Source: a virus
DNA length: 64,000 bases
IMG/VR virus record: IMGVR_UViG_3300030101_002968
Location: 1 to 64,000 of that record
Strand: one strand, 5' to 3'
Position 1 is the first letter of the stretch. The number at the start of each line of letters is the position of its first letter. Made by a program: the position numbers and the translations under genes. Positions 2,630 through 24,084 of the stretch are shown here, piece after piece. The notes beneath the pieces were generated by a model. That model was not told the DNA's origin. It saw only the letters and a list, made by a program, of their open reading frames with translations, and searched no databases.

Positions 2630-2898
2630 TGGCTTTTAAACGTTGGAAAAAGTCACCAAGCAGAAAAGTACCTGTTAGAATGTGGGACAACAATGAAATG
2701 AAAATTGTTGGCTGGTGTATAAACAAAAATATAAAAATAGGTATAACTCCTGACTGGAAACACGATTTAAGCAAATGGCAGATAGAAATATCTATAAACA
2801 ATAACACACATATAGACCCTAAAAGATATGATGATGAAAATGTTTTAGATAAATTATACGAATACTATAAATACTATTATGATAAACACAATAAATAA
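2629..2898 (+). CDS. Hypothetical protein (89 aa)
   Basis: I do not recognise this 89-residue protein. It is basic at the N-terminus (MAFKRWKKSPSRK), contains several Trp residues, and ends in a Tyr-rich helix-like stretch. It is translationally coupled at both ends: TAATG with the primase-helicase, and a 20-base overlap with the following ThyA-like gene. Position suggests a DNA or nucleotide metabolism accessory, but nothing in the sequence shows a reaction. Confidence 0.65.
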   Translation: MAFKRWKKSPSRKVPVRMWDNNEMKIVGWCINKNIKIGITPDWKHDLSKWQIEISINNNTHIDPKRYDDENVLDKLYEYYKYYYDKHNK

Positions 2899-3535
2899 TA
2901 AAAAGTTTGAAACAGCAAACGAAGCATACGAATATGTATTTGATAAGATAATACGTTACGGTACAGACTTCGGAGATACAAAGGCCCTATTTAATGTAGG
3001 GTTTTATATTCTTAACCCTCTTGCAAACGCTATTACAAACAAAGAACGTAAATGGAATCACGAATATGCAGAGGCTGAGTTTAAATGGTATTTATCTGGC
3101 GATCGTAATATAACTAAGCTAGGTAAAATATACGGTAAAATACCACCGATATGGATTAAAATGGCTGATGATGAAGGTAACGTACTATCTAACTATGGTT
3201 GGCAATGGAAACGTAAAGCACAACTAGACAACGTGGTACGTAAACTAAAGTTAGATAAAGATACTAGACAAGCATGTATATCTATATACGATGGTAAAGA
3301 AATGTATAAGTATGATAACGATACACCTTGTACTTATGCAATACAATTTACAAGAGTGCGTGACAAACTAGATATGTGTGTTACAATGCGTAGCAACGAT
3401 CTATGGTACGGCTTTTGTAATGATCAATATTGTTTTTCACAGTTGCAAGCTGCAGTAGCTCATAGGTTAAACATACCTGTTGGCGTATACTATCACTTTG
3501 CACATAACATGCATTTATATAATAATAAATTATGA
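2879..3535 (+). CDS. ThyA-family deoxypyrimidylate C5-modifying enzyme, Asp at specificity position
   Basis: A 218-residue member of the thymidylate synthase/dCMP hydroxymethylase family. The catalytic Cys is C151 (in DTPCTY). From it, without gaps, the E. coli ThyA landmarks line up: Arg166=R171, Asp169=D174, Gly173=G178, His207=H212, Tyr209=Y214. The base-recognising Asn177 is Asp here (D182), as in T4 dCMP hydroxymethylase (Asp179). Upstream, EFKWYLSGDRNI and SNYGWQW match ThyA motifs. The protein ends four residues after Y214, so it lacks about 50 C-terminal residues of ThyA. I infer dCMP rather than dUMP as substrate; hydroxymethyl versus methyl transfer cannot be decided. MazG-type genes follow. 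Confidence 0.82.
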   Translation: MINTINNKKFETANEAYEYVFDKIIRYGTDFGDTKALFNVGFYILNPLANAITNKERKWNHEYAEAEFKWYLSGDRNITKLGKIYGKIPPIWIKMADDEGNVLSNYGWQWKRKAQLDNVVRKLKLDKDTRQACISIYDGKEMYKYDNDTPCTYAIQFTRVRDKLDMCVTMRSNDLWYGFCNDQYCFSQLQAAVAHRLNIPVGVYYHFAHNMHLYNNKL

Positions 3536-4347
3536 CATACTACTTATACCACATACCCGGCAAGAAAGTCGGTGTAACAACTAACCTTGAAGATCGTGTT
3601 CACAAACAACAAGGTTATTATCCAGGCGAATATGATATAATAGAAACGTCTGAGGATATAGATTTTATATCTATTGGTGAACAAATAATGCAAAAGCATT
3701 ATGGATATAGACAAGATGAAGTTCCATATAATAAACTTAAATTTAATAAAGATATGAAGATAAACGTAACAGAACAAACTACAACGTTTCCTGTACCAGT
3801 CAACAAACTAAAAGGTAGGTTGATGGATAATATAGGTATGCGTTGGGAAACAGAGTTTGGCGAATGTACAATAACAAGACCATCTGTAGACTGGATTATG
3901 AAAAACGTAAAAGAGTCTATGTATAACAAAGAAAGATGCTATGTATACAATAAAGCATTTGCTAGGTGGTTTGATAACAACGATCCACACTCACACATGA
4001 CATTAACAGGTGCTCTATCACCTACAGGCGCAAGACAACAAAAGCCTAAATTACAAACTCAATACTTTGATTTAATTAGAGAGTGGGCTAACAATAGAGG
4101 TTTGTATAAGCATGGTGATACTAAAACGCAAGCGCTAAAGCTAGTCGAAGAAGTTGGTGAAATATGTAGAGCCATACTGAAAGACAACCACAGCGATATT
4201 GAAGACGGTATCGGCGATGCAGTCGTTGTACTAACAAATCTAGCTGAGCTTCAAGGTACGAGCATAGAGGCTTGTATAGAAAGAGCTTATAAAGAGATCA
4301 AAGATCGTACAGGTAAAATGGAAAACGGAACATTTAAAAAAGATTAA
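3532..4347 (+). CDS. GIY-YIG-like N-terminus fused to MazG-like nucleotide pyrophosphohydrolase
   Basis: A 271-residue two-part protein. Residues 1-55 look like a diverged GIY-YIG fold: YYLYHIPGKKVGVTTNLEDR carries the strand pair and the conserved Arg (R22), with a candidate metal-binding Glu at E50. Residues about 172-271 are an all-alpha MazG-type domain: LVEEVGE (E206, E207, E210) and EDGIGDAVVVL (D225, D229), a known variant of the EExxE/ExxD metal site. MazG enzymes hydrolyse NTPs or dNTPs to monophosphates. The middle (about 60-170) is unassigned. It overlaps the ThyA-like stop by 4 bases (ATGA). A nuclease role for the N-terminus is uncertain because the GIY/YIG tripeptides are poorly kept. 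Confidence 0.75.
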   Translation: MTYYLYHIPGKKVGVTTNLEDRVHKQQGYYPGEYDIIETSEDIDFISIGEQIMQKHYGYRQDEVPYNKLKFNKDMKINVTEQTTTFPVPVNKLKGRLMDNIGMRWETEFGECTITRPSVDWIMKNVKESMYNKERCYVYNKAFARWFDNNDPHSHMTLTGALSPTGARQQKPKLQTQYFDLIREWANNRGLYKHGDTKTQALKLVEEVGEICRAILKDNHSDIEDGIGDAVVVLTNLAELQGTSIEACIERAYKEIKDRTGKMENGTFKKD

Positions 4348-4348
4348 T

Positions 4349-4618
4349 ATGTCAGACAGAGAAATAATCGATGCTAAACGAGGTATCGTAGCTAGAAAGT
4401 CTTACGGCTTTCGTGATGAAGTAGTTAAAAATGTTGTTGACAAGTTTGTTGAACGTTCAGATGTTGGCTATGAAAAATATGGTCAAACATTACATGACGA
4501 AAGAACATCTGGTGTCAAAGACTTAGCTGCTTATTTAAACGATATACAAGAAGAGCTTATGGATGCGATATTGTATATTCAAACTGCCAGAGAAGAATTA
4601 AATGAAAAGAAGAATTAG
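4349..4618 (+). CDS. Small all-alpha NTP pyrophosphohydrolase-like protein
   Basis: An 89-residue, mostly helical protein. The segment DIQEELMDAILYIQTAREEL has the Glu-rich helix and ExxxD spacing of the MazG/dUTPase/dCTPase all-alpha superfamily, and DVGYEKYGQTL resembles phage dATP/dGTP pyrophosphohydrolase-like families. It starts right after the MazG-fusion stop and overlaps the next gene by 17 bases. It may clear an unwanted dNTP (for example dCTP, if the ThyA-like neighbour makes a modified cytosine), but the substrate cannot be read from the sequence. Confidence 0.6.
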   Translation: MSDREIIDAKRGIVARKSYGFRDEVVKNVVDKFVERSDVGYEKYGQTLHDERTSGVKDLAAYLNDIQEELMDAILYIQTAREELNEKKN

Positions 4619-5063
4619 AGGCAGATTAAAAAGAAAACGTGGTCCTGTTCAAGCTAAAAAAGTAGTTTGTGACGGGATCAAGTTTGCTTCCGGTCTTGAA
4701 AAGTATATGTATCTTGCTCTTAAAAAAGCTAAAATAAAAGCTAAATACGAGGGTAAAACATATATAATTCAAGAAGGTTTTGATTTTAATATAACAAGTT
4801 ACGAACGTCAAAGCAATGGTAAAGGTGAGTTTAAAGACAGAGGTAATAAAAAAATATTACCAATAAAATATACACCTGATTTTATAAGTGATTCATTTAT
4901 AATTGAATGCAAAGGTCGTGCAAACGAAAGTTTTCCATTACGTTGGAAAATGTTTAAAAAGTATGTAAAAGTAAACCTACCTCGTGTAACTTTATATAAA
5001 CCTCAAAACCAGAAGGAATGCGATACTGTAATAGAGTTGATAACCAAAAATAAAATCAAATGA
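4602..5063 (+). CDS. PD-(D/E)XK endonuclease (DUF1064/resolvase-like)
   Basis: A 153-residue protein with a very basic start (MKRRIRGRLKRKR), then FASGLEKYMYLALKK (candidate active-site Glu), KYTPDF (Asp) and FIIECKGR (E-x-K), the order of a PD-(D/E)XK nuclease. The pattern, with the following Lys/Phe/Arg-rich helix, matches phage DUF1064-type or endonuclease I-like proteins that cut branched DNA or degrade host DNA. It overlaps the preceding gene by 17 bases. Whether it resolves junctions or nicks duplex DNA is unknown. Confidence 0.72.
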   Translation: MKRRIRGRLKRKRGPVQAKKVVCDGIKFASGLEKYMYLALKKAKIKAKYEGKTYIIQEGFDFNITSYERQSNGKGEFKDRGNKKILPIKYTPDFISDSFIIECKGRANESFPLRWKMFKKYVKVNLPRVTLYKPQNQKECDTVIELITKNKIK

Positions 5064-5200: not shown

Positions 5201-7069
5201 ATGAATGTAAATAATAAAATTTTGTCAGATATTACTGTGCATATGAAATATGCTAAGTTTATACCAGAGCTTAACAGAAGAGAAACCTGGGAAGAGCTTG
5301 TAACGCGTAATAAAGAAATGCATCAGAAAAAATATCCTGAACTATATAATGAAATAGAAGAAAATTATAGATATGTATATAAAAAGAAAGTTTTACCGTC
5401 TATGCGAAGCCTACAATTTAGTGGCAAACCGATTGAGATTTCGCCCAATAGACTCTACAACTGCTCCTATCTACCTATTGATCACGTTGATAGCTTTAGC
5501 GAGTGTATGTTTTTGTTGCTTAGCGGATGTGGCGTAGGCTACTCTGTACAGAAGCATCATATAAAGTTATTACCTGAAGTAACAAAACCTTTTGAGGTAA
5601 GAACTAGAAGGTTTGTTATTGGTGATAGCATTGAAGGTTGGTCAGATGCTGTAAAGGTATTAATCAAGTCTTATTTAGGCTCTAAGAGATCATCTAAGGT
5701 CAAGTTTGATTATTCTGATATTAGACCAAAGGGAGCTAGGCTTGTGACCTCTGGCGGTAAAGCTCCAGGGCCTCAGCCTTTGAAAGAGTGTTTATTAAAA
5801 ATTAAAGGAATATTAGATGCTAAAGATGATGGTGCAAAGCTTACAACTCTTGAAGTACACGATATTGTTTGTCATATTGCTGATGCTGTCCTTGCTGGTG
5901 GTATTCGTAGAGCAGCTCTTATTAGCTTGTTCTCGGCTTATGACGAAGAAATGATTTCTTGTAAATCAGGTAATTGGTGGGAAATAAACCCGCAACGTGG
6001 TAGAGCCAATAACTCTGCTGTATTAATTAGACATAAAATAACTAAAGAGTTTTTTATGGACTTATGGAAACGTATAGAGCTATCTGGTTCTGGTGAACCT
6101 GGTATATATTTTAACCACGACAAAGACTGGGGTACAAACCCTTGTTGCGAGATAGCGCTAAGACCTTTTCAATTTTGTAACCTATGCGAAGTTAATGTAT
6201 CAAACGTAGAAGATCAAGATGATTTTAATGCTCGTGTAAAAGCCGCATCTTTTATAGGTACATTACAAGCTGGTTACACAGAGTTTCATTATTTAAGAGA
6301 AATATGGCAAGAGACAACAGAACGCGACGCACTTATCGGTGTGTCCATGACAGGAATAGGGAGTGCCGCTGTGCTCCAAATGGATATGAAGGCCGCTGCA
6401 AGTATCGTAAAACGCGAGAACACGAGGGTTTCAAAATTAATAGGTATAAATCGCGCGGCACGTACAACGTGTGTTAAACCTGCAGGGACGACATCTCTTG
6501 TACTCGGTACATCTTCGGGTATACATGCATGGCATAATGATTATTATATACGTAGACTACGTGTAGGTAAAAACGAAGCTATATATAATTATCTAAAACA
6601 TACACACCCTGAACTTGTACAAGATGAATACTTTAGACCACATGACACTGCTGTTATTGAAATACCACAATCAGCACCTGAAGGTTCTATATTAAGAACT
6701 GAGTCTGCTTTTGATTTACTTGAACGTGTAAAAAAAGTAGCAACTGAGTGGGTTGCGCCTGGCCACAGAGCTGGTAGTAATACCCACAATGTATCTGCTA
6801 CTATAAGTTTAAAGAAAGAAGACTGGGACAAAGCTGGCGAGTGGATGTGGAAAAACAGAGACTGTTACAACGGTCTATCTGTATTACCTTACGATGGTGG
6901 TACATATACACAAGCTCCGTTTGAAGATATTAAGAAGTCGGAGTTTAACAAGTTGGTTAAATCATTACAAGATGTAAATCTTGAAAACGTAATGGAGTTA
7001 ACTGACGAAACTGATCTATCTGGTGAATTAGCCTGTGCCGGTGGATCTTGTGAAATAACAGGCTTATAA
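5201..7069 (+). CDS. Class II (adenosylcobalamin-dependent) ribonucleotide reductase, monomeric type
   Basis: A 622-residue reductase converting ribonucleotides to deoxyribonucleotides. The redox Cys pair is C88 (LYNCSYLP) and C326; the thiyl-radical Cys is C315 in NPCCE with Glu317 two residues on, reproducing the C408/E410/C419 spacing of the Lactobacillus RTPR family. A C-terminal CX4C (C612 and C617, CAGGSC) provides the shuttle thiols. GGIRRAALISLF and SGSGEPGIYFN are family segments. There is no small radical subunit (NrdB) in the window, supporting class II. It is shorter than RTPR (739 aa). It needs B12 from the host or sea water. It follows a TTAATTA leader 3 bases after the preceding gene. 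Confidence 0.88.
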   Translation: MNVNNKILSDITVHMKYAKFIPELNRRETWEELVTRNKEMHQKKYPELYNEIEENYRYVYKKKVLPSMRSLQFSGKPIEISPNRLYNCSYLPIDHVDSFSECMFLLLSGCGVGYSVQKHHIKLLPEVTKPFEVRTRRFVIGDSIEGWSDAVKVLIKSYLGSKRSSKVKFDYSDIRPKGARLVTSGGKAPGPQPLKECLLKIKGILDAKDDGAKLTTLEVHDIVCHIADAVLAGGIRRAALISLFSAYDEEMISCKSGNWWEINPQRGRANNSAVLIRHKITKEFFMDLWKRIELSGSGEPGIYFNHDKDWGTNPCCEIALRPFQFCNLCEVNVSNVEDQDDFNARVKAASFIGTLQAGYTEFHYLREIWQETTERDALIGVSMTGIGSAAVLQMDMKAAASIVKRENTRVSKLIGINRAARTTCVKPAGTTSLVLGTSSGIHAWHNDYYIRRLRVGKNEAIYNYLKHTHPELVQDEYFRPHDTAVIEIPQSAPEGSILRTESAFDLLERVKKVATEWVAPGHRAGSNTHNVSATISLKKEDWDKAGEWMWKNRDCYNGLSVLPYDGGTYTQAPFEDIKKSEFNKLVKSLQDVNLENVMELTDETDLSGELACAGGSCEITGL

Positions 7070-9045: not shown

Positions 9046-10880
9046 TATCTTATTATTTTTCTTTGTACTGTGCCATCGCTAAAATTAAAAAACAATACTT
9101 TATTTTTAATTATATCAGTTTCTCTACCTAGTATATCAGTAACAGATAATAAAACTTTTTCAGCACCTCTAACTAGCATTGGCCCTGACCAAGTGCCTTC
9201 ACAATAATTATATGTTGCTTGACATATAGTGTCCCACTCATTATCACAGCAATACTCGTCAACTTCTAATACCCAAGCGTAACAAGGATCGTTTAACCAG
9301 TAAGGTATACCAGGTCCTGTAATACAGTTTGCCGCATACAAGCATGCTATAGAATCGTTAGTATTAGCCTCAAAGTTATAATTGTAAGCATTAACATCCA
9401 TACAACCTTCAACTACAGCTATGCAAGACCCGTTATTTGTATTTGCAGCTGTATCGTAGTTTAAAGCAGTAGAATCTGTACAACCAAAAACAGCTAGCGT
9501 TTGACAGCTGTCTTGTATATTAATGTCTGTATAATAACCGTTAGCAGTGTCTACGTGGTAATCCAAATAAGCTGGTGATATACAGCCAGGATAGTAATAA
9601 CAAACCATACTAGTGTTAGCGCTGTCAACATAGTTAAACGCAGTGCTGTCCATACAGCCATAAATTTTATCTTCGCAAATATTGCCACAGTAAGTATTTC
9701 CTTCATAAGTTTTAAATGGTATTATAAATGGTGGTTGCACGCTTAAAGTAGTATCACCAAATGGATTTAATAAAGTAAAGCCACACTCTAATGCTGTGTG
9801 TTGAGCTTGTTGGCTTACAAATAATTTAGCATGTACTTTTGCTGGTGCATATAAACCTAAATCAAAAGACTGGTTAAATATTTGTTGGTCCATAAAAAAC
9901 TCTAGTGTATCGGCATCTTGCCATATCTCTAGTCTTGTACCTACCCAACCGTTACCTATAAGATCGTGTAATATTAAAGTATAACCACAAGAGTCTATAT
10001 CTTCCATTGTGTTTGCTAAAGGATCGTAATTGTACATTGTACTATCAATACAACCATATATCTTTAGAGTTACACAGCTACTGTCATCTATTGTTGCCAG
10101 TGGGTTATACTCTACATAATCATCGTCCATACAACCATATACAGGTGGTGGCGGCACACACGTGTCAGCATACCATACGTGGCTTGTATCATTACCAAAG
10201 TTAGCAACTGTACCATAAACTACCGTATCACCACATTGCATAACATAGTACGATCCATCTTGTCCACCCCATAAGCTACCAGCTATACCATCACCGTAAG
10301 TATCGTATATAGTAAAAGTTAATTCACCTACAGGTAAACACTTAAATTTAAATTGTGGTTGATAATCTGGCACGTTAGGATATGTACCGCCTGAAAACAC
10401 TACGTTACCTAAACTATCTTTTATATCCCAACTAGTTTCTTCTGGATATTGATCTAAGTTTACATTAACAACAGTTGGTACGCATGGTCCTGGCGGTGGT
10501 GGAGGTGGAGGTGGTAAACAACTTGGTACTTGCCTGTTAGAATATATGCCGCTTTGGAAGTTTGGTGTTGCATAATTTATTACAGTATCACCACATATTG
10601 ACACGTAATAACTACCATTCATACCATCGCCATACGTGTCTCTCATTAAAAATGTTATATCAGTTATACTGTCGTTTATATAACAAGTGTCTGTGTATGT
10701 TGTGTTTGGTGATGTATAATAACCAGCTGGCACATTACAAATAGTGTCGCCGTATAAGCTATCAGCAAATAAAGTCCAGTATGTTTCTGTAGGATATTGA
10801 TCTGTAGTTACATGTATAACAGCTTGTTTTTGTGCTAATATACTTAGCGGTAATAATAGTAGTATTAATAACTTTTTCAT
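9045..10880 (-). CDS. Secreted Cys-rich repeat protein with T9SS-like C-terminal sorting tail
   Basis: A 611-residue protein. Signal peptide MKKLLILLLLPLSILAQ. Three related beta modules each contain a D-x-x-G-x-G motif (RDTYGDGMNGSYYV, YDTYGDGIAGSLWG, HDLIGNGWVGTRLE), separated by poly-Pro. About five repeats of the type GC-x-D-x-x-x-x-N-Y with a trailing Cys follow (YGCMDSTAFNY, FGCTDSTALNY), known from marine Bacteroidetes secreted proteins. The last 40 residues (VLLSVTDILGRE, then DGTVQRKII) look like a type A T9SS sorting tail lacking its usual N-terminal strand. It would be exported by the host T9SS to the surface. Such a gene is unusual in a phage late operon. Confidence 0.78.
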   Translation of the reverse strand: MKKLLILLLLPLSILAQKQAVIHVTTDQYPTETYWTLFADSLYGDTICNVPAGYYTSPNTTYTDTCYINDSITDITFLMRDTYGDGMNGSYYVSICGDTVINYATPNFQSGIYSNRQVPSCLPPPPPPPPGPCVPTVVNVNLDQYPEETSWDIKDSLGNVVFSGGTYPNVPDYQPQFKFKCLPVGELTFTIYDTYGDGIAGSLWGGQDGSYYVMQCGDTVVYGTVANFGNDTSHVWYADTCVPPPPVYGCMDDDYVEYNPLATIDDSSCVTLKIYGCIDSTMYNYDPLANTMEDIDSCGYTLILHDLIGNGWVGTRLEIWQDADTLEFFMDQQIFNQSFDLGLYAPAKVHAKLFVSQQAQHTALECGFTLLNPFGDTTLSVQPPFIIPFKTYEGNTYCGNICEDKIYGCMDSTAFNYVDSANTSMVCYYYPGCISPAYLDYHVDTANGYYTDINIQDSCQTLAVFGCTDSTALNYDTAANTNNGSCIAVVEGCMDVNAYNYNFEANTNDSIACLYAANCITGPGIPYWLNDPCYAWVLEVDEYCCDNEWDTICQATYNYCEGTWSGPMLVRGAEKVLLSVTDILGRETDIIKNKVLFFNFSDGTVQRKIIR

Positions 10881-13439: not shown

Positions 13440-13984
13440 TCTTTTATTTTAATTGTTATTTCATGTGGTGCGTATTCATTACCACCAAAGTATGGGTACA
13501 AATAATATCTTCTTACTAAACCCCAATAACCTTCTGGCCTACGTCTAACCTCTGTAGTGTCACCATTTATAACTATGATATAGTAAAACGTAGTTATATC
13601 TATTGAAGCGTTGTATATTTCGTTTGGCTCTATAGTTCTTATTGTAGCAGAGCTATGTCTACCTTCTTCATGTCTTAACCAGCACAACTCAATTTCTCCA
13701 TCTATATATCTCCAACCAAGCCTTATAGAGTATTTTTGATGAAGCTTACCAAAGTCACTCATGCCGTAGATTTTGTTAACGTCGCTTTGGTTTTCAGGCA
13801 CTTCAGTATAGTATATTGCTGATTCGTCAAGAATAAAGTCAAATGTAATTCTTGAGTTGTCTGGGTGGTTTATAAAAGTACCAGAGCTATGTTTGCCTTC
13901 TGGTATAATATATGTTCTAAAACCTAAATCGTCAGTTTCTTTAGCACATGCTATACACAACAACAGTAACAAAAGCCATCTCAT
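13436..13984 (-). CDS. Lipoprotein (182 aa)
   Basis: The chosen ATG at 13984 starts MRWLLLLLLCIACAKETDD, a typical lipoprotein signal with lipobox CIAC, and its ATGA overlaps the stop of the 3366-aa gene. The frame is open further upstream to 14107, but that extension would read inside the giant gene and bury the signal peptide, so I reject it. The mature part is beta-rich (GFRTYIIPEGKH, SIRLGWRYIDGEIELCW) without a family I can name. It forms an exported pair with the next gene. Confidence 0.7.
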   Translation of the reverse strand: MRWLLLLLLCIACAKETDDLGFRTYIIPEGKHSSGTFINHPDNSRITFDFILDESAIYYTEVPENQSDVNKIYGMSDFGKLHQKYSIRLGWRYIDGEIELCWLRHEEGRHSSATIRTIEPNEIYNASIDITTFYYIIVINGDTTEVRRRPEGYWGLVRRYYLYPYFGGNEYAPHEITIKIKE

Positions 13985-16900
13985 TACTTCATTTTTCCTG
14001 CGCCAACTCTTAATTTTCTTTTTGACTTGCCAGTTTTTAGTGATGTTCTTTTTTCTATTCCTAAGTTCCAAGTTGTCCAACCCATCATTAACGCTAGTCT
14101 TTGCCAAGCAGCTAAATCTTCACCAAAAGCCTCAGACATATTTGTTACTTTTTGGTGCATTCTAGCTAAAGGTATGTTTGTTAAACCTTGAACTGTTGAA
14201 AAGCTTGCTTCCCAAACAGGGTTTTTTAAGTTATAATAAGGTACTTCGTCTATTAAATCTTTGTTCCAACGTATAGTTCTTTCGGCATTTCTTATTTGTC
14301 TTAGCTTAATACCTAAAGGTGGAGATAAGTTTATCATTTCCATAATTACAGCTGATTCGTCTTTATTAAACGTTTTCTGTTGCTCTTTGTAAAAAGTTCT
14401 AGCCATGTTTTTAAGAGTAGAAACTATAGCTCCTTGTATACCCATACCTCTTAACACAGAGTCAACACTGCCGTTTAATACTCTTTCTCTTTTCTTGTCA
14501 AAAAACTCTTCATCATCTTCGTCATCGCCAAACAACATTGCAAACAAAGCTGTTTGTAAACTATAGAATATTATATTTTGAACAGCGCCGTAATAAACAA
14601 TACGCGATATGTTTGCTTTTGCATCACCTCTACCATTTATAAGATCTAATGTTGCTTTTTTCATTAACCTAGTATACTGCATAGGTGTATTTTGAAAAGC
14701 TAATATTATTCTACCAAGAACAGACGCTTGTTGTTGTGAAATCATATCAGGTCTAGCTGACTGCTGAGTTTCTTCTGCTATAACCCTAAAATCTGCAAAA
14801 GCTTTTCTTTTTGCCTCAGTCACGTTCATACCTTCTTTTAAATACTTGTTAAGTCTATTTCTATAAAAACTAGCACCACCAGCAGCAATAGCAAAACTAT
14901 CAGCTATTTGCGTAGGTAAATAACCTTTTGTTAACAAGAAGTTTAGTGCTGCTTTAAATTTGTTAGTAGAGTTAGCGACATAATCTGTAAGCTCACTAGC
15001 GTTAACATCTAGGCCTAAACCAGCTCTTCTTTGCTTTAGCATATCAGAGTTAAATATCATCATAAAGTCTGACCAAAATTGTTTTTGATTTGCAAATGCT
15101 CTTGCTGCAGCTATAATATTATTATCTTCAAAGTTTATAAAGTTAACCATTGATAAAGTCTGTAACGCAGCTGACCTAACGTTAACAAACATTGTAGTAC
15201 CAATAGCACCGTTAATCCAGTTCATAAACTTGTTAACTAAAGCGTTTTGACCAAACGATCTGTTAGTACCGTTTTCTATTCTATAAAGCATATCTTCTAA
15301 TGCTTCTCTAAAATTACGACCATATATAGCTTCAATTTTGTTCATGTTTTCTTTTGAAAATATAATATCTACGTTTTCTAAAAACTCTGTAAAAAATTGT
15401 TTTCTATTTACTCTTGATGTAGCATTTATCAAGTCTGTTCTAATATCTTCTGTCAACCACTCATCTGTAGGTTCTATGTAACCATTTTCTTGTCTAGACA
15501 ATATACCTAACGTGTCTGCAAAAGCTTTTAGTTTTGCGTCATTTTCAACAAATTCAGATAACATTTTTTGATCAGCATCTGATAAACCTGGAATATTAAA
15601 ACCAGCCTTATTCCATAAATAAACTCTTATAGCATCGTTATAAGTGTAGTCACCGCTTGGTATTTTTTTGTATAACAATTTTTTAACATCTGGCATTTTT
15701 GCTTTTAAATTATCAAAGTCTGTTGCTATTGCTTGCTTAGCGGAGTTTAAAGCTTCATAACCTCTGTTTAAAGGTTCTATTAAAGCTTTCTTTAAAAATG
15801 CAAAATGTTTTTCACCTTGTTTTCCTTTGCCTAAAAACTGATATAACAAACCAACAAAGTCTTCTGCTGATGGCGGTACAAATAATTTAAATTTGTTTTT
15901 ATCTTCACCACGTCTTCTTGCTTTAGCTGTACTAAACCTTTTATCAGCGTCTATACCAGAAACATCTTCCATCATTTGATTAAAATCTCTGTCGTAACTT
16001 ATGCTTTGACTTGCTTTTACAATTTGCACGTCTGACTTTATATCTAACTGATCTAATACATTTTTAACAGCTTTAACATTAGGTAAAGCATCATCTACAA
16101 AATACATATCGTTATAACCTTCGGCAAACTTGTTTAACATCCAAACAGCTTTTGCCTCACCAGTACTGTTACCAAGACCTGTTATATTTTTTATTGGCAA
16201 GTTTATACCTTCACTTTTTAAATAAGCATGTATTGCAGCTTCACTTTCAGGCGCTCTAGCTGTTAATATAAATACATTTTTAGGTCCAAACTTTTTAATT
16301 TGGTTTTTAAGTTTTTGCATTAATGGTCCTGGCTTACCGTCTGTAACTCTATTAAAATCAGTAAAGTCCATTTTCCAACCTTCTTTCATAAGCTGATCAC
16401 CTACAAAAGGCCATTCGTTAGAAGCTATACGTTTTGTTTCACCATCTTTAGTAGCTATAATAACGTTGTCACTAATAGCAACTGTTTCGTCAAAGTCAAA
16501 CGTGCTCATACCTCTAGACTTTCTGTTGTACTTAACAGAGTTTGCAGCCACAGTTAGTTTGCTAATTTTTCTGTCTTGTTCTATTTCAGCAACTGTTTTA
16601 GGTAACAACTCACCAGCTATTTCGTGACCTAGCCCAAAAACTAAACCTTCACGCTTAGCTAAAATATCTGCTATAAGCCTTATAGCTTTAACATTTATAT
16701 CGCCCTTGTTCATAAGGTTAAACATTCTAACCATAGAACCATATTCTGTACCAGACTCATACTCTTTACCCATTAAGTTTTTAACACCAGTTTTATCTAA
16801 AGTTTTATCTGCTAGCTTAGTTATTATAGCAACATTATAATCTGTAAGTTCTTTTTGTATAAGATCGTTCCAAGTTTCAGGGTCTATTTTTTCATCTGTA

Positions 16901-19900
16901 ACAATATCTATTATTTTCATTAAAAGATAAGATGCTGGCTTTTGATGTTCAAATCTTACGTTTTCATTACTAATTTCGCCTAATAAAAAGTTTCCATTTT
17001 CATCTATCAAGCCGTCCATTATACCCACAACTTTACCAGCTCTTCTTAATGTAGTTGAAGGGTTACTCATTAAAGTCATCATTTGAACAACAAAATCGTG
17101 CTCGCTAAAGTTAGCATCTAAATTTAGTTTGTCTGCAAAGAAAATAATTTTGTTAACTAAAAGTTTTCTAGCTAAATCAGCCTCGTCGTTTTTCTTTTGT
17201 TGATCGTATTTATTAGCGTCTTTACGTGTAACGTTTTTTATAACGTTTATCATTTGTGTTATAACACCTTTACCGTCTTGTGGTTCAAACTTTATTTCAA
17301 CAAATTTTTCTGTTTTACCATCTCTAAATATTTCCGATGAACCTTTAGAGTTTTCTTCCATAGCATCAATAAAGTCTTGAGGCATAAACTGATAAATAAA
17401 CTTTCTAAAATCTGTTTTTGGACCTTCTTTAGAGTGAAATAGCTGGTACCTAGCTGTACCGCTTTCTCCTTTAGGAGTTTTTACATCTTTGTTTGTACCT
17501 GCTATAAAATAATTTTCTCCTCCACTAATTTTATAGGCTGTTACATGGTTTTGCTCTTCCATAGCTATTTCCATTAGAGCCTCTTCTACAGTTATATCAC
17601 CTTGACGCCATCTAGCTATTATATTGTCAACAACAAAATCAGCAACAGCGTTTCTACCACGCTTAACAGCTAGTATATCAAATACTTCTTTTTGACTTGG
17701 CACATCACCATCTTCGTTTACTATTCCAAACTTTTCAATAAGACCTACATAAACCTCTGTATCTAAATATATACCAGCAAACTCTTCAAAAGGTATCATT
17801 TTTACACCTTGCGACTCAAAATTACCTTTTTGATATTGAAATTGTTTAATAGCACCAGCTTCTTTAAACATGTCTTTAACAAGAGCTCTAGCCTCTTCAT
17901 TTGTTAAAACGCCGTCTTTAGTAAACACTTTTGATAAAGCTGTTATTGTTCTAGCATTAGATAAAGTTTTATCTATCTCTTGAACAGCAATGCCAAGCTC
18001 AGGAAATAGTTTTTCAACGCCAGATTGTTTAGCTGCTGATAATTTTTTAAACGTTATAGACTCTGCTGACATAGACAAACCATCTTCAAGAGCATTTTTA
18101 AGTCTTTCATCTAAATCGCCAGTAGCTTCTAATGATCTTCTTAAACTTTGATTAGTAATTGTTCTATCTAACAAAGATAATACCGCTAGTATTTTAGCGC
18201 TTGTGTTTCTATCAATTTTAAAATCAAAACCTTTTTTAGCTCTAAATATACCTAAATATTCAGCAAAATCTTTTTCAGATAAATTAGGTTTTTTATATTG
18301 AGGGAAATTATTTTTAATTCTTTTAGAACCTTTGTTATAACCAAACCTTAACAACACATTTGGCATATTAGTAGATTTAAAAGCCGCAGTGTGACCTTCG
18401 TTAAAAATTGTAGACAATATTAACTGAGCATGTTTAGCTATAAACCTTTGTGCTGATCTAACTTCGTTACTACCAGCTTTACCTTCTTTTTTTCTTAAAT
18501 TAGCTAAAAACTTTTTACTTCTTGGATTTAGCTTATCAACGTCAACACCTGACAATCTAGCTATAGTTTTATAAGTCAAACCTTCTACATTACTTAATTC
18601 CATAGTGTCTAAATCAAGATCAAGCATGTGTTTTTCCTCTAGCTTCTTTTTTAATTCAGCTATTTTTTTACTATCACCCTTGTTTTTAACAAGACTTGAA
18701 TATTCTTTTAAATCAGCAAGCCCTTCTGCTATTAACTTTTCAACCTCTGCTTGAATATCTTGGTTTTCTATTCTACCTATTTCTCTAGCAGCGTTATATT
18801 TAGGAGAAACAAATCTTGGCGCGTTGTCAAAATCATTTGGTGTTGAATCGTCTGCAATGTCACCAACGTTTTCATTATCTATACTTACACTACCTTCCAT
18901 AGCTCCTTTTTGCTCAGCTTTTAAAGCGTCACCATATCTAAGGGGTAACAACATATTTAAGTAAGCACCAAAAGGCGTTAGCGCTGGATCGTAAGATCTA
19001 GAAAGTTTTATTAGTTCTCTAGAAAAACCTGACTGAAACTGTTCGAAACCAACTCGTTTACTTTCTTCTAATCCCATTATTTTAGGATTTTTAGCCGCAA
19101 AGTCAGACAAGGCTGTTACTAAAGCCATGTTGTTTAACACCAAATCGTTTCGTAAATCTTCATCGTACTCATATGTACCATCTTCAAGTATTACTCTTGT
19201 TTCTAAAAGTTGTTGTCTTATTCTTTCGTTTTCTTCTACAATTTTAATTGTATTTTCTTTTAGCTGTATGTCTTGTTGTACGTCATCTCTTTGGTAAATA
19301 TCTTTTTGTCTCATACGACCACCACGAGTTGAAAGCGCAGCGCTACCTGGTGACCATATTTCGTTTATCATACCTTTAGCTAACTTAGCAGCTTCTTCTA
19401 TTCTAGCAGCATTTATAAAATCTTTACCAGGCTTTATGTTTAAACCTTCGTTTATAATTCTTCTCATGCCAGGCGAAAACTCTTCTTTTGTACCTAAAAG
19501 CTCTTTGTTGTAGTCTCTAACAAAATTAAACATGGCTTTTGCAGGATTTCTGCTTGAGAAAAAATCAGCGTTTTTATTTATAAACCCTATACCAGACGCT
19601 CTCATAGATCTTCTAACAACATCATGAAGTCTTGTAAAAAAGTTAGAACTTATTTTAACCTCACCTTGAACAATAGCCTCTGACAAAACAGTAAACATTT
19701 CGTCCCATTGCATGTTTTTAACTTGCTCTTCGTAAGCCTTAAACTTACCACCTACATAATTAAATCTATCAGAAAACTTGTATTTATTAGGGTTTTTTAA
19801 AAGCTCGTTTCTTAACATAAACGACAAGCCTTTTACAGCGTTAGGATTTTTTAAAACTGTTTGCCTTAAAACTAAATGAAGTATTTCGTGTACACCAGCA

Positions 19901-22900
19901 CCATAATTATCTTCTTCTTTAACAGCGTCTTTGTTAAATAAAATTATAGGTTTTTTACCTATATCATCATATATAACTTTAGCAACACCACCGTGGTTTA
20001 ACATTTTAATTGGCTTCTTTTTACCCTTGTAAATTCTGTTGTATCTTTTTATTATAGCGTTTCTTCTTTCTATTTCTTTTTCATACTCTATACTAGAAAG
20101 CTCTATTGTGTCTACTTCTATACCAGCAGCTGCAAATAAAAGCTTTTTACCTCTATCTATACTCATTCTATATAAACTCTTCTTCCACTCTACAGGTGAC
20201 TCTTGTGAAAGTTTATTGTCTATAGTTTTTATTTTGTTATTTATTTCTTCAATCTCTTGACTATTAGCAGCTTTGTCTTTTCTTTCTAGTTTTTTCTTTT
20301 CTTTAACAAGTTCATTTTTCTCTACAATCATATCGACCATACTAATCGTAGCCCACTCAGGAGCGGCGTTTAAAGCTTGCGCAACGTTTCTAACAGCTTG
20401 ATGGTTTTGTTTTTCTAACTCTAACCTTCTTTCGTGAAGCTCTATTTTTTTATTAACTTGAGCCCATTTTGGATTAGCCTTAACATATAAAGCTTTTTCT
20501 TTTTTTAGTTCATCTATATGTTTTTGTATTTCAGCTTGTTCTAATTCTGAGTTTTGCAAAGCTTCAGACGCTTGATCTAAAATACCTTCATACATTAACG
20601 TTTTAGCATTTTTTATTGTAGACCTTGCTTGCTTAACACCTAAACCACCTGTTAATAAAGATGTTCCTACAATTATCTCTCTTTGCGCTTGAACGTTACC
20701 AACTTCCCAGCTGTAATCAGCTATAAAATTAGCCTTAACCATATCGTTTAAAAAAACGTCTAACTGTTCTTCAACGTGTTCTTTAAAAAAGTTTTTACCA
20801 AAAGTTTTTAAAGCTTTACTATAAACTTTTCTATTTATAGCTTTTGTAGCCTGTTTAGTTCCAACACTTTTAAGGTCTTTTATAAAAGTTTTTAATAAAT
20901 TTTTACCAACATCATTTTTAAAGAACATAGCGTCAGGCATGACTAACTGACTAACACCTGTAGCTAAAGTTGTCATATTAGCATATAATAAAGCAGAGTT
21001 ACCGCTTAAACCATTAGACCTTGCGTCAGCTAAATTGTCAAAAAATAACATTCGTTGGTTCATACCAATCATTCTTATTCCTCTAATTTCAGCTGCAGTA
21101 GTTTTGTAATTTTTAGCTAGCGTGTTCATTATTGTTCTACCACTACTAGCGTTTTTAATGTTTATAGCTCTTACTTTTGTTGCGGTTATACCTGCGCCAG
21201 CTCTAGCAATATTTAACGTATATGGTAGTAGTTCTGCAAATGTTTTTGAAACAGTGTACAAGCTAGGGTTGTAAGCTTTTGGATTTGTTAAATCTTCCCA
21301 AAACTTACCAGAACCTTTGAAGTTAGGATTATAAAGAGTTTCTAGTTTGTTTTTAGGTAGTATTTTAGCTGTAGCAACACTACCTAAAAAATCCATGTAT
21401 TGATCTTTGTGGCTATATATTAAACTACCATCATCGTTAAACTTTTTTGGATCTGTAGGTAACTGTGTTATTCTACTAGCCTCTACAGTATTGTCAATTA
21501 AGTCAGCGCCAAAATAACCACTACCTAAGCCAAGCAAAGCAGCTGGTGATTTTAAAACAGAATTTAAAACTCTATATCTCGAGTATTCTTCTGCAAAGTT
21601 ACCTCCTATTTCAGCGGTTGCATATATAGGATTATCAGTAGCATTTTTAACACCTATATCCCAAGCTCTAGCAGCTTTAGTACCTTTAAACGCTGGTGGT
21701 TTTTTGTCAAGAGGTACATCTGACATTTCCCAACCAAGTGCTTGCCACATTTGCTCGTTTCTTTTTTGCCAAGCAGCACCTTTTTCGTTTATTAACTTTC
21801 TGTTTTCAAACAGCGCTTGACCTTCTTCTTGCAAGCTGTTTTGTCTAACATCAAGATCTTTTAACATTGCGTTTATATCGCTTAACACGCCTAAATCTTC
21901 AGCAGAAGGTGTTACTCTCTTGTTGTCAATAATAGCAGGTATAAATATTTCTCTACCTCTAGCATCCCAACCGTAAGTTCCATATTTGCTATTTATTCTT
22001 TGTATTTGATTATCTAAAGCCTCGTAGTCTGATCTTAAATTGTTTCTTTTGGTTTCAAAAGCAGCTTCGTTATTTTTTTGCAACTTATTAGCTTTAACAA
22101 GTCTTTCACCTTGTTTGTTTAAAACAAGATTATTGTTTGCTATTACGTTTGCTTTAGCAACTTTTATTATTTGTTCCCTGTCTAAACCAAGTTGTTTAAA
22201 AGAAACACCATTATAAATTTTATTATAAAGTTCTCTTGGTACAGCATTTAGTATTTCTTTTTTCATTTGAGTTTGAAACTTACCAAAATCTAACGTTTCA
22301 CTGTTAGGTATGCCAGCAAATGCTTTTTTTATTACATCGCCTTCAATATCGCTTTTTTCTAAAGTTATAACTTCGTTAAAAACTCGATTAGCTGTTGTCA
22401 TGAAGCTTATATTATCTGTATAAGCTTCGTCAAACTTTTGACCTCTTGCGTCTACAGGCCCTTCGGTTGAGTCAAAAAACTCACCAGTAAACTTATTTAC
22501 CTTGTTTTTAAACTTTAAAGCCGGAGTGCTATTCTCACCACCTACAGCGTTAAAATATTCTTCTCTACTTGTGTAGTTAGTTCCTTCAGCTTTGTTTATT
22601 TCTTGTAAAACTGATCTATCATACTTAGCTAATCTATCTTTATTAAACTTTTGTTTGTTAAAAAAAGCATCTCCACCGTTATATGTAAATTCAGGACCTT
22701 CTTCTTTTCCATCATCAATACTTAAAACACCTTCTATTGGATTAATTTTTTGAATAGGATTAGTTGTTCTATCTTGACGTGATTCTTTTCTTTTTTCTAT
22801 TATTTTATTAAACTCTTCTTCATCTTCTTTTGCTAAATCTCTTAGTGGTTGTCTTTTTTTATCATCTGTAGGTAAGGTAAATTGTGGTGGTGGTAAGTTA

Positions 22901-24084
22901 ACAATTTTGTTATTTTCAAGTCTTACTTCAGTATCATCATCGTCTTCGTTACCAAAATCAAAGTCATCTTTTTCTTTAGCTTCGTAATTAAATATATTAG
23001 AACTTCCTTTTATAGTTATTTCTTTTAAACCATCTGTTGGAAGTTTTGTTGCATACTTTTCTTCTTTTTGATCTACTATTTCGTTTTCTTTTTCTTTTCT
23101 ATCTATATTAACCTCAGTGTACGGCGTAGCTTTTTCAAGCTCCATTACTCTTTCTTCTACCTCCATTTCTTTAACAGGTAGCGTTTTAATAGGATCTACT
23201 TGTATGTCGTCTTTTTTACTTCTACCTGTTTGGCCTGCAACAGGGCCAACACCAGTTCCACCTTGATTTATAACTTCACCTGTACTTGGGTCTATAATTT
23301 GTTGTGTTTCGTCAAAATCAAAAGAACTTGTTTTCTTTCTTTTAGGTTCTTCTATCTCTTGTTGTTCAATTATTTCAGGTTGTTGTACACGAACAGCATT
23401 TATACTGTCTACAGTTAAACTATCACCTTCAACTAAAGACATTGAATCTACTTTACCACTAACCCTATGTTCGTTAAGCCTACCCATCCAACCTCTAGAA
23501 TATTGCGGATCATTTTGACTTGAACCTATATAGCTTTGCTCTCTTCTCATGGCATAAGCATCTAAAACTTTATCACCACCTTGTTTTTCTATAGCATTGT
23601 TTACATGAAAAATAGCATCATCTATAGTTTCAAAACCTTTAGCATCTCCTAAATCACCATAACCAGCGTTTTGTAACGCGGTAACCATTGTTTCGTTGTC
23701 GCTGTTACCAAAAGTAAATTGTTGGTTTATTAAAGCATCGTATATAGACGCTCCTACTCTCTTATCAGTTATTTCTTCTAACTTGTGTTTATCCCATATA
23801 TTAGTTTTAAAATAATTAGACACAATGTTTTTACCTTCATCTTCTGTTCCAGAAAATTCTGCTTCAAACTGAGAATTAACAGCGTTCCAACCAGCTTCGT
23901 CTTTTGGTAATTCAATATTATTCCAATCTGCCCAAGCGCCTAAAGTTAAACCATAAAACGTTTTAGAATAAGCAACACTACCACCGTCTAAAACAGTTTG
24001 GTTTCCTCTATCTGTTTTATCAGTGCTTATACCAGCCTCTGCTTCAGCAGCTAAATTATGGGCATAATTGAATTTTTCAGCCAT
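13984..24084 (-). CDS. Giant 3366-aa polyvalent virion protein (GH108-like, HEXXH and HAD-like domains)
   Basis: Domains in order: residues 1-210 resemble GH108-type lysozymes (candidate catalytic Glu in EAEAG near residue 16, C-terminal RGWMGRLNEHR). A charged linker follows (210-480), then long helical regions with hydrophobic stretches (800-1150). A metallopeptidase motif H1399-E-I-L-H1403 lies in GVHEILHLVL. A HAD-like phosphatase/nuclease fold follows (FDFDE at 2529-2533, ILTAR near 2606, VDDALPN near 2660). The C-terminal part has a hydrophobic patch near 3165 and an AFQNTPMQYTRL segment as in large polyvalent proteins. Most likely packaged in the virion and ejected with DNA, like T7 gp16. 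It follows two internal-virion-like genes. Confidence 0.8.
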   Translation of the reverse strand: MAEKFNYAHNLAAEAEAGISTDKTDRGNQTVLDGGSVAYSKTFYGLTLGAWADWNNIELPKDEAGWNAVNSQFEAEFSGTEDEGKNIVSNYFKTNIWDKHKLEEITDKRVGASIYDALINQQFTFGNSDNETMVTALQNAGYGDLGDAKGFETIDDAIFHVNNAIEKQGGDKVLDAYAMRREQSYIGSSQNDPQYSRGWMGRLNEHRVSGKVDSMSLVEGDSLTVDSINAVRVQQPEIIEQQEIEEPKRKKTSSFDFDETQQIIDPSTGEVINQGGTGVGPVAGQTGRSKKDDIQVDPIKTLPVKEMEVEERVMELEKATPYTEVNIDRKEKENEIVDQKEEKYATKLPTDGLKEITIKGSSNIFNYEAKEKDDFDFGNEDDDDTEVRLENNKIVNLPPPQFTLPTDDKKRQPLRDLAKEDEEEFNKIIEKRKESRQDRTTNPIQKINPIEGVLSIDDGKEEGPEFTYNGGDAFFNKQKFNKDRLAKYDRSVLQEINKAEGTNYTSREEYFNAVGGENSTPALKFKNKVNKFTGEFFDSTEGPVDARGQKFDEAYTDNISFMTTANRVFNEVITLEKSDIEGDVIKKAFAGIPNSETLDFGKFQTQMKKEILNAVPRELYNKIYNGVSFKQLGLDREQIIKVAKANVIANNNLVLNKQGERLVKANKLQKNNEAAFETKRNNLRSDYEALDNQIQRINSKYGTYGWDARGREIFIPAIIDNKRVTPSAEDLGVLSDINAMLKDLDVRQNSLQEEGQALFENRKLINEKGAAWQKRNEQMWQALGWEMSDVPLDKKPPAFKGTKAARAWDIGVKNATDNPIYATAEIGGNFAEEYSRYRVLNSVLKSPAALLGLGSGYFGADLIDNTVEASRITQLPTDPKKFNDDGSLIYSHKDQYMDFLGSVATAKILPKNKLETLYNPNFKGSGKFWEDLTNPKAYNPSLYTVSKTFAELLPYTLNIARAGAGITATKVRAINIKNASSGRTIMNTLAKNYKTTAAEIRGIRMIGMNQRMLFFDNLADARSNGLSGNSALLYANMTTLATGVSQLVMPDAMFFKNDVGKNLLKTFIKDLKSVGTKQATKAINRKVYSKALKTFGKNFFKEHVEEQLDVFLNDMVKANFIADYSWEVGNVQAQREIIVGTSLLTGGLGVKQARSTIKNAKTLMYEGILDQASEALQNSELEQAEIQKHIDELKKEKALYVKANPKWAQVNKKIELHERRLELEKQNHQAVRNVAQALNAAPEWATISMVDMIVEKNELVKEKKKLERKDKAANSQEIEEINNKIKTIDNKLSQESPVEWKKSLYRMSIDRGKKLLFAAAGIEVDTIELSSIEYEKEIERRNAIIKRYNRIYKGKKKPIKMLNHGGVAKVIYDDIGKKPIILFNKDAVKEEDNYGAGVHEILHLVLRQTVLKNPNAVKGLSFMLRNELLKNPNKYKFSDRFNYVGGKFKAYEEQVKNMQWDEMFTVLSEAIVQGEVKISSNFFTRLHDVVRRSMRASGIGFINKNADFFSSRNPAKAMFNFVRDYNKELLGTKEEFSPGMRRIINEGLNIKPGKDFINAARIEEAAKLAKGMINEIWSPGSAALSTRGGRMRQKDIYQRDDVQQDIQLKENTIKIVEENERIRQQLLETRVILEDGTYEYDEDLRNDLVLNNMALVTALSDFAAKNPKIMGLEESKRVGFEQFQSGFSRELIKLSRSYDPALTPFGAYLNMLLPLRYGDALKAEQKGAMEGSVSIDNENVGDIADDSTPNDFDNAPRFVSPKYNAAREIGRIENQDIQAEVEKLIAEGLADLKEYSSLVKNKGDSKKIAELKKKLEEKHMLDLDLDTMELSNVEGLTYKTIARLSGVDVDKLNPRSKKFLANLRKKEGKAGSNEVRSAQRFIAKHAQLILSTIFNEGHTAAFKSTNMPNVLLRFGYNKGSKRIKNNFPQYKKPNLSEKDFAEYLGIFRAKKGFDFKIDRNTSAKILAVLSLLDRTITNQSLRRSLEATGDLDERLKNALEDGLSMSAESITFKKLSAAKQSGVEKLFPELGIAVQEIDKTLSNARTITALSKVFTKDGVLTNEEARALVKDMFKEAGAIKQFQYQKGNFESQGVKMIPFEEFAGIYLDTEVYVGLIEKFGIVNEDGDVPSQKEVFDILAVKRGRNAVADFVVDNIIARWRQGDITVEEALMEIAMEEQNHVTAYKISGGENYFIAGTNKDVKTPKGESGTARYQLFHSKEGPKTDFRKFIYQFMPQDFIDAMEENSKGSSEIFRDGKTEKFVEIKFEPQDGKGVITQMINVIKNVTRKDANKYDQQKKNDEADLARKLLVNKIIFFADKLNLDANFSEHDFVVQMMTLMSNPSTTLRRAGKVVGIMDGLIDENGNFLLGEISNENVRFEHQKPASYLLMKIIDIVTDEKIDPETWNDLIQKELTDYNVAIITKLADKTLDKTGVKNLMGKEYESGTEYGSMVRMFNLMNKGDINVKAIRLIADILAKREGLVFGLGHEIAGELLPKTVAEIEQDRKISKLTVAANSVKYNRKSRGMSTFDFDETVAISDNVIIATKDGETKRIASNEWPFVGDQLMKEGWKMDFTDFNRVTDGKPGPLMQKLKNQIKKFGPKNVFILTARAPESEAAIHAYLKSEGINLPIKNITGLGNSTGEAKAVWMLNKFAEGYNDMYFVDDALPNVKAVKNVLDQLDIKSDVQIVKASQSISYDRDFNQMMEDVSGIDADKRFSTAKARRRGEDKNKFKLFVPPSAEDFVGLLYQFLGKGKQGEKHFAFLKKALIEPLNRGYEALNSAKQAIATDFDNLKAKMPDVKKLLYKKIPSGDYTYNDAIRVYLWNKAGFNIPGLSDADQKMLSEFVENDAKLKAFADTLGILSRQENGYIEPTDEWLTEDIRTDLINATSRVNRKQFFTEFLENVDIIFSKENMNKIEAIYGRNFREALEDMLYRIENGTNRSFGQNALVNKFMNWINGAIGTTMFVNVRSAALQTLSMVNFINFEDNNIIAAARAFANQKQFWSDFMMIFNSDMLKQRRAGLGLDVNASELTDYVANSTNKFKAALNFLLTKGYLPTQIADSFAIAAGGASFYRNRLNKYLKEGMNVTEAKRKAFADFRVIAEETQQSARPDMISQQQASVLGRIILAFQNTPMQYTRLMKKATLDLINGRGDAKANISRIVYYGAVQNIIFYSLQTALFAMLFGDDEDDEEFFDKKRERVLNGSVDSVLRGMGIQGAIVSTLKNMARTFYKEQQKTFNKDESAVIMEMINLSPPLGIKLRQIRNAERTIRWNKDLIDEVPYYNLKNPVWEASFSTVQGLTNIPLARMHQKVTNMSEAFGEDLAAWQRLALMMGWTTWNLGIEKRTSLKTGKSKRKLRVGAGKMK

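Follow-up and report, generated by a model that had tools for sequence, protein, structure and literature searches.

A predicted dCMP 5-hydroxymethylase in a conserved gene cluster of Bacteroidota-type phages

Results

The locus and its gene cluster

The window analysed here, 64,000 bases long, covers bases 1-64000 of a 70,893-base IMG/VR record. Its terminase is 63% identical to that of the uncultured podovirus MW202828 and about 45% identical to those of Flavobacterium elemo phages, followed by those of Cellulophaga and Tenacibaculum phages, and the genome encodes GroEL and a GroES-like gene. A PHROG search gave no match for a 3,366-aa protein encoded at 13984-24084. The crAssvirus muzzle C-terminal domain (PF25729, 2.2e-10) was recognised in a 2,422-aa structural protein (28192-35460), which hints at a distant tail kinship with crAss-like phages.

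An ORF at 2879-3535, with an ATG start and on the plus strand like the neighbours described below, encodes a 218-aa protein of the ThyA superfamily, predicted here to be a dCMP 5-hydroxymethylase. It matched Pfam PF00303 (E=1.5e-22) and PHROG 160 (E=2.1e-38), which PHROG names 'thymidylate synthase', and exactly one PF00303 gene was present per record in 26 of 26 records. The gene resides in a replication operon whose order is kept in most of 45 sampled contigs: primase-helicase, small ORF, hydroxymethylase, MazG fusion, small ORF, DUF1064 nuclease and class II ribonucleotide reductase (RNR). Upstream, the primase-helicase (914-2629; phrog_239, 3.1e-85) recurs in 44/45 contigs and is followed by a conserved small protein of 89 aa (2629-2898; 35/45 contigs), which overlaps the start of the hydroxymethylase gene by 20 bases and had no match in Pfam and PHROG searches. 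Downstream of the MazG fusion lie another conserved small protein of 89 aa (4349-4618; phrog_11184, E=4.1e-8; 39/45 contigs), a DUF1064/Holliday-junction-resolvase-like nuclease (4602-5063; PF06356 1.4e-8, phrog_190 8.7e-12; 40/45 contigs) and a class II (B12-type) RNR (5201-7069; phrog_367 1.1e-133, PF21995; 39/45 contigs).

The fusion itself (3532-4347, 271 aa) carries a MazG-type NTP pyrophosphohydrolase domain (PF03819 1.3e-6, phrog_1992 4e-35) and is a candidate dCTPase. It was found in 43/45 contigs, in most of the 43 directly 3′ of the hydroxymethylase, and here the two genes overlap, the stop codon of the hydroxymethylase and the start codon of the fusion sharing ATGA. The MazG domain occupies residues ~176-271, and in a Foldseek search with the fusion model this half matched MazG/DCTPP1 (dCTPase) folds, which would suit a dCTPase, though the fold does not reveal the substrate. 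The N-terminal ~65 aa are weakly similar to the GIY-YIG/T5orf172 group, and Y3, Y6, G10, G14, R22 and E50 are invariant in this region. As the T5orf172 match (E 0.003-0.03) is below the Pfam cut-off and the whole-model Foldseek search matched the MazG half only, the GIY-YIG assignment is tentative. The fusion was not found in nine other phage records, in a search run without a positive control. MazG-type genes are not exclusive to carriers of the enzyme: pyrophosphohydrolases are annotated in elemo phages and phi19:3, which have no hydroxymethylase.

Conservation among relatives

Viral contigs were scanned with peptide patterns that did not contain the Asp motif, yielding 48 loci, 45 of them full-length (the window counted). 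The base-selecting residue D182 was present in 45/45 full-length sequences of this motif-independent set, and it can therefore be attributed neither to chance nor to a sequencing error. C151, D148, S104, Y106, E67, S172, H212, Y214 and R130 were invariant in the same set. A second, enlarged scan (112 sequences) was partly selected on the Asp motif and is thus biased for D182, which it shows in 112/112 sequences; the other residues named above are likewise kept in 112/112. The gene is conserved in more than 100 sampled contigs of Bacteroidota-type phages, and IMG/VR contains at least 586 stretches with a gene for a relative. Its dN/dS against three relatives was 0.12-0.16, indicating purifying selection. 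A scan of genome contigs with the single sequence gave no relative; a second scan, with the alignment, picked out eight MAG-binned contigs, of which three are from Bacteroidota.

Active-site residues and predicted specificity

Between C151 and Y214 the protein aligns without gaps to E. coli ThyA (MG1655 sequence), 63 residues being spanned in both (C146-Y209 in ThyA). The original prediction had named these residues correctly: C151 corresponds to C146, R171 to R166, D174 to D169, G178 to G173, H212 to H207 and Y214 to Y209, and the alignment places D182 at the position of N177, as had been claimed. We assign C151 as the predicted nucleophile, D182 as the base selector and D148 as the water-activating residue, the putative active site further including S104/Y106, E67, R130, S172, H212 and Y214.

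An Asp at ThyA N177 means that cytosine is chosen over uracil (PMC8670742, PMC6400193; for Asp as dCMP selector see also PMC5175136). Hydroxymethylation, as opposed to methylation, is marked by Asp/Glu three residues before the Cys together with Ser/Thr-x-Tyr (PMC6400193), and deoxyribose is selected by Ser169/Arg123, ribose by Ala/Lys as in MilA (PMC5175136). In our alignment the reference enzymes fit these rules at the base position and three residues before the Cys, respectively: Asn and Leu in ThyA (dUMP methylation), Asn and Asp in SPO1 gp29 (dUMP hydroxymethylation), and Asp and Asp both in T4 gp42 (dCMP hydroxymethylation) and in MilA, which additionally has Lys/Ala at the sugar-selecting positions (MilA stretch taken from the sequence-search alignment against solved structures). 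The hydroxymethylase signature of PMC6400193 is complete and invariant in the present family (D148, S104, Y106, D182), as are the deoxy-selective S172 and R130, shared with gp42 where MilA has Ala/Lys. Having Asp, Asp, Ser and Arg at these positions, the 218-aa protein is therefore predicted to form 5-hydroxymethyl-dCMP. The original prediction had left the product wider, as a dCMP-directed enzyme or one yielding another dCMP C5 product; its dCMP part is supported by a selector that is established in the literature and invariant in the family, and D148, S104 and Y106 narrow the product to 5-hydroxymethyl-dCMP.

These residues also bear on whether the protein might be a dCMP C5-methyltransferase, that is, a ThyA with an Asn-to-Asp switch that forms 5-methyl-dCMP. 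Cofactor and fold would be shared, and N177D ThyA does yield 5-methyl-dCMP according to the work cited in PMC8670742. However, the Asp148 and Ser104 of hydroxymethylases stand where ThyA has Leu143 and Pro92, and the 218-aa protein has no counterpart of the C-terminal tail with which ThyA closes its active site; we consider this activity very unlikely.

A family profile searched against solved structures ranked T4 dCMP hydroxymethylase at the top (1.3e-22), followed by MilA (3.2e-22) and ThyA (4e-20 or weaker), and a single-sequence query put MilA first. The predicted structure of the 218-aa protein (pLDDT 87.8) had its best Foldseek matches to MilA (TMq 0.85-0.87), then to the T4 enzyme and ThyA (about 0.71-0.77; T4 0.72-0.77); gp42 and MilA, the two enzymes originally proposed for comparison, were both among the best folds, and the signature residues match gp42. 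In the phylogenetic tree Bacteroides phage BF503P2 gene 42 joins the family in a single clade (support 98/97), apart from ThyA; the branching order among hydroxymethylase groups is without clear support.

Foldseek also listed AfhB 9iqu and 9iqc (target TM 0.74-0.79), 2025 entries whose class, ThyA-fold flavin-dependent dCMP hydroxylase, was assigned by title. Solely through these matches was it considered that the protein is a flavin-dependent 5-hydroxy-dCMP synthase, which would convert dCMP towards 5-hydroxycytosine as in RB69/Mosigvirus and probably Thanatos. Such synthases are present in RB69-type phages (PMC13390438), and in Thanatos a sugar is joined directly to cytosine via oxygen (PMC12838424). 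They share the fold, a similar length, the Cys and the dCMP Asp with the 218-aa protein, and an Asp that is also found in RB69 and Thanatos cannot by itself exclude 5-hydroxy chemistry. The Asp, on which the original prediction was built, thus holds as a dCMP selector and does not on its own separate 5-hydroxymethyl from 5-hydroxy chemistry. This identity was rejected on other residues and on the tree, leaving it highly improbable: RB69_048 (taken as the RB69 enzyme from homology and an annotation note) and Thanatos_062 have lost E60 (Phe), W63 (Phe), D171 (Asn) and G175 (Val) and have Glu for D145, whereas the 218-aa protein retains E67, W70, D174, G178 and D148; in the profile search 9iqc/9iqu came out far below the T4 enzyme (4e-13 vs 1.3e-22); and the 5-hydroxy-dCMP synthases form a separate clade with 100/100 support.

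The C-terminal end was examined across the family. The ThyA C-terminus is indeed missing, as originally observed, with 4 residues after the Y214-equivalent here compared with 55 in ThyA. It is not a distinctive feature, since T4 gp42 (28 residues) also lacks the folate-capping ThyA tail, still binding folate (PMC6400193), and Agathobaculum phage AB434P2 (220 aa) has 5 residues. Tail length varies from 4 to 23 residues across the family, and from the sequences we read the short C-terminus as variation, with no sign of lost function. The truncation would also fit a ThyA homologue that is impaired in catalysis or regulatory and does not modify nucleotides, as would two substitutions: at the position of the second phosphate-binding Arg (T4 R124), 71 of 112 sequences have Gln, 39 have His and 2 have Arg, and the 218-aa protein has Cys for T4 Arg177, a residue that binds the tail of the folate. 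The Arg at R124 occurs in some members of the enzyme type and does not define catalysis; Gln or His there is not disqualifying, because the active hydroxymethylase SPO1 gp29 also has Gln, and against the impaired-homologue reading stand the catalytic residues invariant in 112 sequences, the dN/dS given above and the maintenance of one operon, which make it scarcely plausible. An ordinary thymidylate synthase or a thymine-directed dUMP hydroxymethylase, suggested by PF00303 membership and the PHROG label, is hardly credible, as all relatives have Asp at the base-selecting position where SPO1-type dUMP enzymes retain Asn, and the NCBIfam thymidylate synthase equivalog cut-offs were missed (63 bits vs 327).

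Other modification genes and restriction sites

PHROG scans of most other ORFs of the record revealed no modification enzyme. The dNMP kinase DNMK (PF21448) was absent in 22/22 family records, with T4 matched as positive control; no GT2 glycosyltransferase was found in the records searched, and a beta-glucosyltransferase search run without a positive control gave no match. No DNA polymerase of family A, B or C scored above the cut-off in the whole record and in 22-26 related records, which do have primase-helicase, ERF, exonuclease, ligase and RNR. The lack of a recognised kinase or polymerase suggests that these functions are host-supplied or carried by unrecognised proteins. Two further observations favour the assignment. 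In phages ATCCB and VFW, relatives are encoded close to beta-glucosyltransferase genes, and in the MetaGPA study, ThyA homologues with Asp177 were enriched in modified-cytosine contigs and co-occurred with PRA-PH (MazG-like) genes (PMC8670742).

C/G-containing 4-mer palindromes were avoided in 0/11 enzyme-carrying genomes, compared with 4/5 terminase relatives without PF00303. GATC, for instance, had observed/expected counts of 0/126 in MW202828 vs 147/133 in the window, and further avoided sites were CCGG in MW202828 (0/21), CATG (0/119) and GGCC (0/23) in elemo, and CGCG in phi38:1 (0/24). This contrast lends weak support, because the known modified phages used as controls (T4, RB69, SPO1 and BF503P2) avoid some sites too and the enzyme carriers form one clade. 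Modified cytosine in the virion DNA and protection from restriction, as originally proposed, would be consistent with it.

Discussion

We propose, with a probability of roughly 0.85, that the 218-aa protein is a folate-dependent dCMP 5-hydroxymethylase working like T4 gp42, and that its product is phosphorylated and replaces some or all phage cytosine, most likely free of sugar. By this mechanism Cys151 would attack C6 of dCMP, Asp182 would orient the cytosine and protonate its N3, and Glu67 would help to activate methylene-THF, with the methylene placed on C5. Asp148, with Ser104/Tyr106, would then activate a water that adds to the methylene, giving 5-hydroxymethyl-dCMP and THF. The adjoining MazG-type pyrophosphohydrolase probably drains dCTP and supplies dCMP, the phage class II RNR may feed the pool, and phosphorylation of 5-hydroxymethyl-dCMP would probably proceed via host kinases. 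The modified nucleotide, presumably incorporated into the DNA, might protect it. Against the proposal weigh the absence of a DNMK match in the 22 family records, the substitutions at R124 and R177, and the MazG-type genes of phages that have no hydroxymethylase.

Judged by sequence, a known type of enzyme can be assigned with confidence to a large clade of phages, where it would be a new branch of its family and not a new kind of system. T4 gp42 (PDB 1b49, 6a9a), the top profile match among solved structures, shares the base-position Asp, the Asp three before the Cys, Ser-x-Tyr, the SNYG and G-F-x-N-D motifs, the deoxy-selective Ser/Arg and the missing folate-capping tail. Compared with it, the family mostly has Gln/His for R124, the window protein has Cys for R177 and a C-terminal end ~24 residues shorter, and T4's beta-glucosyltransferase (searched without a positive control), dNMP kinase and own DNA polymerase were not found alongside the enzyme. 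In terms of T4-like cytosine replacement, the MazG fusion is the dCTPase candidate, and DNMK and GT2 were not found. MilA CMP hydroxymethylase (PDB 5b6d), the best structural match, likewise has the cytosine Asp and the Asp three before the Cys; it differs in being longer and in having Lys133/Ala176 for ribose where the window protein has R130/S172.

Among phage relatives, BF503P2 gene 42 (WAX07047.1), from the same clade, is already annotated as deoxycytidylate 5-hydroxymethyltransferase and has 47% identity and a GFCNDQY motif. BF503P2 differs in being a gut phage, in having a second divergent ThyA-like copy and in the MazG fusion being unmatched there, in the search without a positive control. 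This second copy (9109-9915), near the normal dCMP-type copy, carries Leu in place of the catalytic Glu and no longer has the conserved Gly. The AB434P2 'deoxyuridylate hydroxymethyltransferase' (3838-4500) belongs to another clade, with 38% identity, and is probably dCMP-directed given its Asp at the base-selecting position, despite the dUMP-type annotation.

A more specific scenario, which we regard as doubtful, is that the DNA of a large Bacteroidota phage clade contains bare, unglycosylated 5-hydroxymethylcytosine made by a minimal pathway of hydroxymethylase, GIY-YIG-like/MazG fusion and class II RNR, without a recognised polymerase or dNMP kinase, the fusion coupling dCTP removal to attack on unmodified-cytosine DNA. 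In T4 these are separate proteins, the GIY-YIG endonuclease II being distinct from gp56, which removes dCTP.

T4 uses 5-hydroxymethyl-dCMP as a building block that hides its DNA from restriction enzymes. If the proposed assignment is true, 5-hydroxymethylcytosine replacement would be common in abundant, poorly cultured Bacteroidota phages, represented by the at least 586 IMG/VR stretches. This would bear on the encounter of these phages with restriction and with defences that depend on modification, and on the behaviour of their DNA in sequencing methods that detect base modifications. It would also provide a case, open to testing, in which hydroxymethylation proceeds although no glycosyltransferase, polymerase or kinase is obvious, and raise a modest question about the working of a pathway that has so few recognised components.
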